Below are positions 23,101 through 62,935 of a DNA stretch of 64,000 nucleotides, in pieces. Origin of the DNA: Plicaturopsis crispa FD-325 SS-3 (Eukaryota; Basidiomycota; Agaricomycetes; Amylocorticiales; Amylocorticiaceae); the NCBI GenBank assembly GCA_000827205.1, contig KN832558.1:502003-566002 (forward strand), given 5' to 3'. A program made the translations under genes and the position numbers. The notes beneath the pieces were generated by a model. The model ran no database searches. It saw only the letters and a program-made list of their open reading frames with translations, and had not been told where the DNA came from. Positions within the stretch are counted from its first letter, which is position 1. Every line of letters starts with the position of its first letter.

Positions 23101-23522
23101 GTCATTTATCGTAGTCGTGCAGGCTCGCTAACTATCTACTTAGATCACCCCTCATCTCGACACCTACCCGAATGCGGATCTTCTGTGGTGCCAGGTTTGT
23201 CGCCGTGCTGCATACCTTCTAGGTCAAGATGTCTAACTGTTTCAACAGGAGGAGCCTCTCAACAACGGTGCTTGGTCCTATGTCGGTCCCCGTATATACA
23301 CCGCCGGGAGCAAGACCGAGCATCACAAGGGCAAGTACCCCTTCTACGCCGGTCGTGAGCCTACCAGCTCTGTCGCCACGGGCAGCAAAGTGAGTTCAAA
23401 ATGTTTGCTGTTTGCTGCTTCGTACTCATACCCACTGTTCGCAGGCACAACACAAGAAGGAGATCGAGCAGTTCCTCTCGACCGCCTTTGGTAACTCGGA
23501 GATGATCCCTAACCGTGCGTAG
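20163..23522 (+). CDS. KGD1: 2-oxoglutarate dehydrogenase E1 component
   Basis: Thiamine-diphosphate decarboxylase of the TCA-cycle 2-oxoglutarate dehydrogenase complex in the mitochondrial matrix; the product is succinyl-CoA. The start at 20163 opens an Arg/Ser/Ala-rich presequence, then [20 protein letters not shown], the family N-terminal segment. Exons: 20163-20525, 20579-22665, 22720-22780, 22831-23091, 23144-23194, 23249-23389 and 23445-23522. Core motifs: [46 protein letters not shown] and NNQIGFTT (ThDP/Mg binding), [13 protein letters not shown], and the transketolase-like C-terminal half with [20 protein letters not shown]. About 1,010 residues, a normal length. The codon use is strongly biased to C-ending codons, fitting high expression. 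A transposon sits 106 bp past the stop. Confidence 0.96.
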
Positions 23523-23618: not shown

Positions 23619-23627
23619 CATAATGCT
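23619..23627. repeat. Target-site duplication, left copy
   Basis: CATAATGCT directly left of the transposon; the matching copy is at 24454-24462. The preceding G also matches the last base of the element, so a 10-bp duplication is formally possible. Confidence 0.8.
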
Positions 23628-23875
23628 CAGGCTCCTACCCACCCGGCCTTGGGAGTCATGAGATATCTCGCAAAGTCGGCGTTGAGTCTTGCAGCCACCC
23701 TCAGCCACCGATCCACGTGCTAAATTGAAACTCAGCAACTCTAATTCCACACATAACTCCCAAGGCCGGCTGGCACACAACGTCGGGTCCCACGCCACAG
23801 CCCGTGGATGCACCGTAGCAAACGCGCGCCACAGTAACGCCACAGCGTCGCCACTCGTCGTTTTGGCCCTCGTAC
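23628..23875 (+). repeat. Left terminal inverted repeat of the transposon
   Basis: Reverse complement of 24206-24453, differing at two bases that I can see. It contains an internal palindromic block whose ends read GGCCTTGGGAGT and ACTCCCAAGGCC (about 23645-23767). Antisense frames in it look protein-like only because both arms encode the same nonsense. Confidence 0.85.
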
Positions 23876-24205
23876 ACCGCTTGCACTCAGCTTTCTGAGC
23901 ATATTAGATGATAGATTATGTATCCCTGCAGTACTCCTTCAAAAGACAATGTAACTACGATTTTTTGACGTTCTTGGGAAGAGATGTAGCCCGGGCAGCC
24001 TTATGATCCAGGCTAGTCTCCCGTAGTCAGACTAAAATTTCAGAAAAAGGACAGTCGATTTTCCTACATTATAGATCCAGGCCACTCAACAAAGTGCAGC
24101 CACATAGGCATGGATTTTTTTTATGAAACTCGATTTTAGAGGAGCATTTGTGGGTGAGAACCAAGTCCGACAGATCTGTGTATGTACAGGGGGCGTTGAG
24201 ACGTT

Positions 24206-24453
24206 GTACGAGGGCCAAAACGACGAGTGGCGACGCTGTGGCGTTACTGTGGCGCGCGTTTGCTACGGTGCATCCACGGGCTGTGGCGTGGGACCCGACG
24301 TTGTGTGCCAGCCGGCCTTGGGAGTTATGTGTGGAATTAGAGTTGCTGAGTTTCAATTTAGCACGTGGATCAGTGGCTGAGGGTGGCTGCAAGACTCAAC
24401 GCCGACTTTGCGAGATATCTCATAACTCCCAAGGCCGGGTGGGTAGGAGCCTG
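24206..24453 (-). repeat. Right terminal inverted repeat of the transposon
   Basis: Reverse complement of 23628-23875. It contains the nested 123-bp block 24314-24436, with 16-bp ends GGCCTTGGGAGTTATG and CATAACTCCCAAGGCC. Part of this arm (from 24314) reappears after the N gap. Confidence 0.85.
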
Positions 24454-24462
24454 CATAATGCT
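24454..24462. repeat. Target-site duplication, right copy
   Basis: CATAATGCT directly right of the transposon, identical to 23619-23627. Confidence 0.8.
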
Positions 24463-24547
24463 TTGTTTAGCTTCAAGCCCTACCTCAAGCTCAAGATCGA
24501 CCCTTGGGTGGAGAGAGAGGATTGAAAAATTCTTTGCTGAACAGTGT

Positions 24548-24917
24548 NNNNNNNNNNNNNNNNNNNNNNNNNNNNNNNNNNNNNNNNNNNNNNNNNNNNN
24601 NNNNNNNNNNNNNNNNNNNNNNNNNNNNNNNNNNNNNNNNNNNNNNNNNNNNNNNNNNNNNNNNNNNNNNNNNNNNNNNNNNNNNNNNNNNNNNNNNNNN
24701 NNNNNNNNNNNNNNNNNNNNNNNNNNNNNNNNNNNNNNNNNNNNNNNNNNNNNNNNNNNNNNNNNNNNNNNNNNNNNNNNNNNNNNNNNNNNNNNNNNNN
24801 NNNNNNNNNNNNNNNNNNNNNNNNNNNNNNNNNNNNNNNNNNNNNNNNNNNNNNNNNNNNNNNNNNNNNNNNNNNNNNNNNNNNNNNNNNNNNNNNNNNN
24901 NNNNNNNNNNNNNNNNN
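24548..24917. other. Assembly gap (370 N)
   Basis: Run of 370 N. The 234 bases before it (24314-24547) are identical to the 234 bases after it (24918-25151), so the gap probably joins two overlapping contig ends. Confidence 0.99.
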
Positions 24918-25151
24918 GGCCTTGGGAGTTATGTGTGGAATTAGAGTTGCTGAGTTTCAATTTAGCACGTGGATCAGTGGCTGAGGGTGGCTGCAAGACT
25001 CAACGCCGACTTTGCGAGATATCTCATAACTCCCAAGGCCGGGTGGGTAGGAGCCTGCATAATGCTTTGTTTAGCTTCAAGCCCTACCTCAAGCTCAAGA
25101 TCGACCCTTGGGTGGAGAGAGAGGATTGAAAAATTCTTTGCTGAACAGTGT
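24918..25151. repeat. Exact repeat of 24314-24547 (probable false duplication at contig join)
   Basis: All 234 bases match 24314-24547 at a constant offset of 604. They include 140 bp of the transposon's right arm, the target-site duplication and 85 bp of unique-looking flank. Because the flank is copied as well, this is not a second insertion; it is either an assembly artefact or a tandem duplication. Confidence 0.9.
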
Positions 25152-60035: not shown

Positions 60036-62935
60036 ATGGATATTGCCCAAGATACAGAAATTGACTGGCCTGAATTATTTGTTCACAATGAAACTGGAGA
60101 CTCCCCATTATCCGAATCTAGTGATAGCGACTCCGACACAGACTTTAGCGGCAGCGAGGATGACAGTAGCGGCAGCGGGGATGACAGTAGCGACTTGGAC
60201 TATGATCCTAACGCTATGGATGTGGATACCGACGAAGAATCTGACGGTGAAGAGGGTCAGGAAGGTGCGGATAGAGGCAGGACTGAAAGGCCAAACTCGT
60301 ACCAGATCAACACCAAGATCCGCAGGGAGAACTTGCGGGCAGAGGAGCAGGTGTTAACAGAGGCAGGGCTCCGTGAGGGAGCTATGATGGCATTTAAGGT
60401 CAACAAGGTCCTCCTGGAAATTGACGCACAGGGCCTCGACTTGCCTATCTTTCTCGACGCTCTGAGCTGGGGCGATCCGGGGTGTACATCGGGCCGTGAA
60501 GCCAATATTCGCTATGCACGGTCGTCGCTCATGCATAGCACAGAGCTCCCGGGGATCCTAAAGCGCTGGTGGAAGCCACCGAGGTCCAGTAAAACAAAAA
60601 AACGGAGGCCTGAGGGGGGGAAGAAGAGCATGGAAGAGTTCGCAGCGAGCTGTGTCGAAAGCATGCTGCAGTCAGAGATGGCTGCAGTTGCGAGCCCGCT
60701 GAAATCACCTGCAGGGGAGGACTTGACAGAGGAGACCTTGACGAGCATCAGCTTCAGTGCGATGGGCACCGAAATGAAGACACTCGCACCTAATCTATGG
60801 AGGCTGCTTCGCGGATCGGCGTATAGCGCAGCACAGGCTAAACGGAATACTACAAAAAATCCTGACAAGGTCAGTAAGTTCAAGCTGGACGCAAATGTAT
60901 GCTGAGATCAAATAAACTCACGCTATTGTGTTCCGTAGATCGTCCTCATGATTGTAGCCATGCTCGCGTACACCCGGAACCATCATCACAGTCGAATCCA
61001 AAAGATGTTCGCGGTTTACCTGAAATTTCGCGGCCTCTCCGCAAAGGCATTCGATACACTTCATGCGCTTGGGGTCACGATGAGCCACAAATGGACTAGC
61101 AACGCTGTCGCAACCATGTCTGAGAATGCGATGAACGAAGTGGTCAGCATGATTCAGAAGTACCCATTCTTCATTTCGCACGACAACGTCAACATACCGT
61201 TCCGAGTCTTTTCCCAGCGGCTCGATAACAAGAGCGAATTTGGCAATGGAACGGCCGCTACGGTCTACGTAAAGAGAAATGCTCAGCCGCTGCCCGCCGA
61301 TGCGAATATGGACTTACAAGAGATCCGCGCGGAGGGGCTGAAGAAACCACTCGAAATCGCAGAGATTGTGGAGATGGATGTTGAATCGGCGCCTCGAATC
61401 CGCGACCGCATGTGCTACCAGGTCCTCCGATTCATTCTCGATTCACCGGAGTTTGACTTCAAGACTTACGAGCAGAAGGACCACGACGACCTGAAACCAC
61501 CCCCTCCCGTGAAAGGACTGCCTTCGGGTCCAGAACATCTGACATTGCAGTACATGCTCGGGACTCTCAATATACCGGAGGCCAGCTATGATGATAATGA
61601 TCGTCTGCTTATGGAGTGGTTGAAGCAGTTGAAGAAGAACGCACCAGACGAGAAGCGAAAGCTTGCGATAGAGCAGCTTATAGTATGGGTCGGCGATCAG
61701 CTCACAATTGATCGACTTCGCGGGCTCTTCAAGTCGCGCGCAGAGGATATGAATTCCTACGATAGATTGGACTGGTTAGTGCCCGCGTTTGGATGGCTTC
61801 ATTTGGAGATGGCGGTGGAGACTTCGCTGCATAAGCAGTACCTAGGGACGACTTCAGGACGAGGCCTATCCCATGATTTCGCAGTCCTAGAACGAAAAGG
61901 ATTATCATCGGTGCTAACGAAAGGCCCATTCCACCACAACATACAAGAAGCTCTGTACCATATTGCCGAAGCGCACCTCCGCATCGATATCTGCACGACT
62001 GCAGGTGCTCCCGACATCGCAGCACTTCGTAAGAAGTCCCCGCGGGAGCTTCTTGACCTCGCAATTAAGGTGGTGGACGATCACGCGTCAACGGAGGCCA
62101 TGGACAAGATTGACCATGGGACACCCACGGAAAAGCGAGACGAAGTTAAGCGGCAGACAATCATGTTCAACCGCGACGTCCTACAATATATCGTTCTCGA
62201 TCAGGCTATCAAGCACGGCGACATCGGGATAATGGAAGACTCGTTACCGCAGCTCTTGTTCAGATTCCAGGGAAGCGGACAGTCGAACTATGCAACCGAA
62301 ATCCTCGAATTGCTTCAGAATCTTCGCAGGGAATGGCCTGCAGAGTTACGGTAAGTGCAGTTCAGCAGTGCGGAAATCCACGACTCACAGAGGCCATCTG
62401 GCGCATATGACTAGACACTATGTGACCGAAAATTGTTGGCTTGTTAATTTTACTGGCAGGCCGGACGGATTTCTGCCGGTGGACATGGCACAAGAGCATA
62501 ATATCAAGGACATTAAAGTCAGTCTGCGTTAGTACAAAGTAATTGCACGCTAACCTTGATACCCTGCAGGTAACATACCACTCCGAGGGTCCGAACATAA
62601 ACTGGGACTACTTGAAGAAGATGCATCCAGCGGTCAGGATCATCCGTGCACTATCACGGCATATGGAAGAGGATTTTGGCACCCTCAACCGTGGAAACAA
62701 ACATGGTGTTCCTAGGAAAGACCGTGATGTCAGAAAACTACAGGAATCGTATCTGGCATCGCATACGCACGATCTAGAGCGCAACGGACGAAAGATCAAG
62801 TCGGCCGACAACCGTGCTCCCGACGTCATCACCCTTGGGTGCGCGAGCCTGCAAACAGGTAGCAAAATGCGAGACTGGGTTAGTGGTAGGCAGTTCAAAA
62901 GGTCCATGCAGCAGCGGTGGCCCGAGGAGGAGTAA
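60036..62935 (+). CDS. DUF6589 family protein, probably DDE/RNase H-fold transposase-derived
   Basis: I start at Met 60036 (MDIAQDTEIDWPELFVHNET). An acidic Ser/Asp-rich stretch includes tandem SGSEDDSSGSGDDSSD. The core runs from REGAMMAFKVNKVLLEIDAQ through LPGILKRWWKPPRSSK to the end at 62935. Introns: after NPDK near 60870-60938, a short one at 62352-62390, and one at 62521-62570. The conserved blocks HDNVNIPFRVFSQRLDNKSE, IVWVGDQLTIDRLRGL, WLVPAFGWLHLEMAVE and CWLVNFTGRPDGFLPVDMAQ followed by EHNIKDIK match the DUF6589 family, widespread and multi-copy in Agaricomycetes. The spacing of Asp (HDN), Asp (GDQLT) and Glu (QEHNIK) suggests an RNase H-like catalytic triad; this is inference. 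Frame intact over 2.9 kb, about 900 residues. Confidence 0.75.

Follow-up and report, generated by a model that had tools for sequence, protein, structure and literature searches.

A nonautonomous foldback-shaped transposon in Plicaturopsis crispa, probably of the AcademH type, shares its terminal sequence with an element carrying DUF6589 and a helicase match

Foldback elements and MITEs are characterized by hairpin anatomy, small size, and the absence of a recognized gene, as is the element described here. These are names of form; in the present case, a terminal motif connects an element of this form with a single helper group. Long arms together with a 9-bp duplication (about 9 to 11 bp) are usual for Mutator-like elements (MULEs). 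The ends of hAT elements often start with CAG, and duplications are 8 bp for hAT, P, and KDZ elements and 8 or 9 bp for Merlin. AcademH comprises the helicase-encoding Academ transposons, which are of low copy number in fungi (Kojima 2020, via the accessible portions of PMC10045372 and PMC10799480), and its duplications are given as 9 or 10 bp, compared with 3 or 4 bp for AcademX (PMC10045372, same portion). The element examined here lies in a 64,000-bp stretch of Plicaturopsis crispa FD-325 SS-3 DNA, the whole of which is referred to as the window. It resembles AcademH, as portrayed in those portions, in its 9-bp duplication, in the helicase gene of a coding relative, and in its low copy number in a fungus, whereas it differs in its foldback shape with 248-bp arms and in lacking a recognized gene. 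Literature searches on Academ and on basidiomycete Mutator-like MITEs returned no description of these terminal ends in titles or the starts of abstracts.

The element is 826 bp in length (window positions 23628 to 24453), and its 248-bp inverted arms pair without an indel and with two mismatches, at arm positions 30 and 82; extending the pairing to 23879/24202 gave three mismatches in 252. The flanking 9-mers at 23619 to 23627 and 24454 to 24462 are both CATAATGCT, and of the lengths from 4 to 15 only 9 gave a match. An initial annotation had described a nonautonomous transposon with 248-bp arms and a perfect 9-bp duplication; the structure was confirmed and the nonautonomous character supported, no transposase gene being recognized in the centre (23876 to 24205) when the list of open reading frames was read by eye. 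The features of the locus are as follows.

23619 to 23627, plus strand: left 9-bp target site duplication, CATAATGCT
23628 to 23875, plus strand: left terminal inverted repeat, 248 bp, starting CAGGCTCCTACCCACCCGGCC
23639 to 23660, plus strand: subterminal block, arm positions 12 to 33, an inverted repeat of the block at 23752 to 23773 in the same arm (none of 100 resampled sequences was as good)
23752 to 23773, minus strand: inverted copy of the subterminal block, left arm positions 125 to 146
23876 to 24205, no strand: 330-bp centre
24206 to 24453, minus strand: right terminal inverted repeat, 248 bp
24454 to 24462, plus strand: right 9-bp target site duplication, CATAATGCT
24548 to 24917, no strand: run of N, 370 bp
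24918 to 25151, plus strand: exact 234-bp repeat of 24314 to 24547 (part of the right arm, duplication, and flank)

Folded as RNA, the element reached -640 kcal/mol, compared with a mean of -271 (standard deviation, 9) for 20 shuffles. This fold energy, together with six further copies that have their own perfect 9-bp duplications, excludes chance as the source of the structure. A stop codon (23520 to 23522) lies 105 bp upstream of the element and ends a gene which, from the E1_dh and Transket_pyr domains in the C-terminal frame that was read, appears to encode 2-oxoglutarate dehydrogenase E1. Beyond the 370-bp gap, the sequence repeats that before the gap exactly, up to the last base preceding it. 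The repeat probably represents the overlapping ends of two contigs joined by the gap, with a true partial duplication being possible.

To identify other copies, the P. crispa FD-325 SS-3 genome (33.2 Mb, 49 contigs) was searched; as the searches scored the best candidates only, the copy counts are lower bounds. At least seven two-ended copies were identified (the window copy and six others), all with perfect 9-bp duplications of seven different sequences.

C5 (window copy): duplication CATAATGCT
C7:558292-559047: duplication CTTGCCGAT
C3:543575-544329: duplication GGTTCAACG
C8:795514-796505: duplication GCCCGCGCT
C15:651659-651818: duplication GACATTAGT
C18:312843-320874: duplication GGTAAACGC
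C23:152171-152823: duplication CCGCGAGAC
C2:3535137: lone end, one mismatch
C19:340615: 41-bp fragment

The repeat of the window element's own right arm beyond the gap is a further partial copy. Homology between copies stops at CAGGCTCC/GGAGCCTG when the alignments are read by eye, so the initial annotation withstands the first of its own refuting checks. The copies fall into two subfamilies, with CCTACCC or CCTAACC, which share ~76% identity over matched arm parts and about 72 to 74% over aligned arm sites. The centre of the window element matches that of the C7 copy in the opposite orientation, over 140 bp (96%) and 132 bp (89%). The C15 copy, at 160 bp, looks like the outer portion of a single arm capped with the terminal sequence. 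The C23 copy was at one point taken to have no duplication; this reading was rejected once the outer end proved to lie at 152171, beyond a nested insert. This insert (~152181 to 152522, ~340 bp) is hairpin ended, has the ends CAGGACCCCGG, and lies inside the terminal motif, where a 6-bp duplication (CTCCTA) was seen by eye. Relative to the C3 copy, that in C8 has an extra central block of ~0.2 kb, possibly another nested insert. The C18 locus was considered as an 8-kb autonomous coding copy and rejected as such, since its core is a separate element ending in TAGGTTCGG, with its own duplication CAAGGCCTT, inside a gene-less copy. Once its two inserts (722 bp and 7,015 bp) are removed, the C18 host copy is a perfect 284-bp palindrome, struck at its centre, CAAGGCCTT, by the 7,015-bp element. 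The 722-bp insert (C18:312881-313602) has inverted ends CACCCC..AGACCGGAACGC and a duplicated TA and is Tc1/mariner-like in form.

Comparison of arms within and between copies bears on the age of the insertion. The arms of the C3 and C8 copies differ from each other at 14 of 246 sites and by a 10-bp indel, yet the two arms of a single copy differ at 1 of 246 sites in C3 and 0 of 256 in C8 (0 of 246 in C7 and 2 of 246 in the window). Arms diverged between copies are thus near identical within a copy, and they therefore evolve in concert, a change in one arm being carried over to the other before or between insertions. Consequently, an insertion cannot be dated from the identity of its arms alone. 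Few differences were found among the arms of the window, C7, and C23 copies (5/246, 5/236, and 6/236), which suggests that their subfamily was fairly recently active. The recent insertion proposed initially is thereby upheld in part: the subfamily appears fairly recent from the comparison between copies, but the near-identical arms, which had been offered as the evidence, are weak as a means of dating. How foldback elements maintain the similarity of their two arms could be studied with these arms, which evolve in concert, and with the perfect palindrome.

The terminal sequence was then considered genome-wide. The 11-mer CAGGCTCCTAM has 59 exact matches, compared with 41 for the reversed control pattern, so the bare motif is not rare. 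Among neighboring matches no more than 10 kb apart, 18 pairs are convergent, one is divergent, and one is on the same strand (the repeat beyond the gap in the window); 22 matches lie outside pairs and were left out of the duplication count. All 18 convergent pairs are flanked by a perfect duplication, for which 9 bp is the sole matching length from 4 to 15. These pairs, ranging from 160 to 9,742 bp, comprise about six inverted-repeat families as judged by eye: that of the window element and those beginning CCCATCCGTCGC.., AAACCAGCCACTCG.., AAACCAGCCTCTCG.., CCAAGCCGCTGTT.., and CCAAGCCGCACGTT... Thus, the 10 bp of CAGGCTCCTA serve as a terminal tag that, in convergent pairs, marks out whole elements, with perfect 9-bp footprints throughout.

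One convergent pair, C5:873045-879189 (6,145 bp; 9-bp duplication GGTATTGCA), contains a minus-strand DUF6589 gene (876353 to 877766) and, convergent to it on the plus strand, a helicase match (873758 to 874351; 30% identity; E, 1.6e-20) whose DEAD domain scored 24.4 bits, just under the cut-off of 26. One stop lies inside the main DUF6589 match, implying an intron or damage. This pair was read over its two ends (241 bases each) and 1,260 further bases. It shares with the window element a common start of 12 bases, CAGGCTCCTACC, after which the two diverge. The layout beyond this start is also similar: a block from position 12 has an inverted copy at positions 125 to 146 in the window element and at 148 to 158 and 144 to 154 in the arms of the C5 coding element, and for the window element and both coding arms, none of 100 resampled sequences was as good. 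The inverted block is also present in the C3 copy of the window's family, and a subterminal inverted repeat is present in three TAGGTTCGG arms (0, 1, and 0 of 100 resampled as good). Of four other CAGGCTCCTA families, one has such a repeat at another position (25 to 37 with 113 to 125; 0/100), while in the remaining three no subterminal inverted repeat better than chance was found (82, 53, and 19 of 100 as good); these negatives are weak, given a high resampling null for some arms (maximum 44, at C2:3200711). The autonomous partner predicted by the initial annotation thus has a counterpart in the genome, in that the terminal sequence is shared by a coding relative. For the transposase gene with the same ends that was sought there, DUF6589 in the C5 pair is a candidate, but this pair, which also contains a helicase match, shares the arm for 12 bp only. 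No coding element sharing the arm past the first 12 bp was found among the best candidates scored in the genome searches, in a sequence with some stretches masked as N. What connects the window element to a helper is therefore the 12-base terminus, the duplication length of 9 bp, and the arrangement of the subterminal block. We infer that the C5 coding element, or a close relative of it, would act as the helper of the window element and that the helicase would take part in transposition.

The same coding element bears on the Mutator-like assignment made initially, according to which the window element is a nonautonomous MULE moved by a MULE transposase. MULEs, including foldback types, do share long inverted repeats and a 9-bp duplication with the window element, and two matches to PF10551 were identified in the genome, one over the cut-off at 28.4 bits and one below it at 24.8 bits. 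However, the inverted repeats that bound the two places differ in sequence from those of the window element (AAGTGAACGC.. and ..ACTTTCCGC..; 110 and 45 bp, with adjoining direct repeats of about 8 to 9 and 10 bp, the ends being approximate). The nearest exact match to CAGGCTCCTAM is more than 100 kb from either place, and the C5 coding element, whose terminal sequence is that of the window element, contains DUF6589 and a helicase match. As both MULE-domain elements end in other sequence, Mutator was rejected as the helper; the assignment was not borne out, and this origin is considered very unlikely. Movement by another superfamily that duplicates 8 or 9 bp of its target (Merlin, hAT, P, or Zisupton/KDZ) would accord with the CAG start, as in hAT ends, and 9 bp falls within the range of Merlin. 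Against this, all 18 pairs have a duplication of exactly 9 bp rather than the 8 bp of hAT, P, and KDZ, and Merlin was rejected because the genome has no match to PF12762 (DDE_Tnp_IS1595), the family to which Merlin belongs; such an origin is most improbable.

The window element, first guessed to be of the Mutator type, is therefore reassigned to a group of helicase-type transposons. We regard it as a nonautonomous, MITE-like member of the group carrying DUF6589 and a helicase, with AcademH the most probable identity of that group, and hold this reading with considerable confidence. The fit to AcademH derives from the helicase, the 9-bp duplication, and the fungal host taken together, as described in the accessible portions of PMC10045372 and PMC10799480. 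The duplication is exactly 9 bp in all 18 convergent pairs, and a helicase match is present in the coding relative at C5:873045-879189, with which the window element shares 12 terminal bases and the subterminal layout. The group might instead be a distinct superfamily that is not Academ and also makes 9-bp duplications, as Pfam lists DUF6589 as a family of unknown function; the joint match of helicase, host, and duplication to AcademH, as far as those portions of PMC10045372 and PMC10799480 describe it, argues against this and makes it rather unlikely. Under the AcademH reading, proteins from coding relatives would recognize the terminal CAGGCTCCTA in trans and perhaps also the adjacent block, repeated inverted about 110 to 135 bp further in. 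The target would be cut with a 9-base stagger and the element inserted, by a cut-and-paste or replicative mode, with gap repair producing the 9-bp duplication.

DUF6589 was also found in a second family, that of elements ending in TAGGTTCGG, which has 9-bp duplications in all three copies with both ends read (GGTGCGTGC in C3, CTCTCTACC in C12, and CAAGGCCTT in C18). The C18 element (313713 to 320727, 7,015 bp) has two frames that match DUF6589 (E, 3.1e-41 and 1e-51), as well as an open 789-amino-acid helicase frame, presumably RecQ-like, with DEAD and Helicase_C domains. Across the genome, at least 56 matches to DUF6589 were identified at about 28 loci. Among the matches listed, 14 of the 28 loci are accompanied by a convergent helicase match no more than 8 kb away, two have a nonconvergent one, and 12 have none within that distance, the lists of DUF6589 and helicase matches both being lower bounds. 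DUF6589 is probably a transposase family, and as a candidate it is directly testable. More tentatively, DUF6589 may be the transposase of a helicase-carrying group that recognizes the near-invariant 10-bp CAGGCTCCTA, with the arms of foldback MITEs kept identical by arm-to-arm copying during or between transpositions, possibly helped by the encoded helicase; we consider this combined proposal possible but doubtful. The word DUF6589 was absent from the literature searched.

A DUF6589 gene is also present inside the window (60948 to 62935; first frame E, 4.5e-93). Its protein had no relative among PDB sequences at E values up to 1, six exact peptide patterns retrieved none from viral_contigs, and a single-sequence structure prediction was uninformative (mean pLDDT, 36.8). 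When its frame was aligned with the two C18 frames, an alignment with too few rows to bear on catalysis, motifs around DNxN and GDxLT were observed in the first C18 frame. Past the end of the window, beyond a run of N, a minus-strand frame resembles a helicase N terminus when read by eye.
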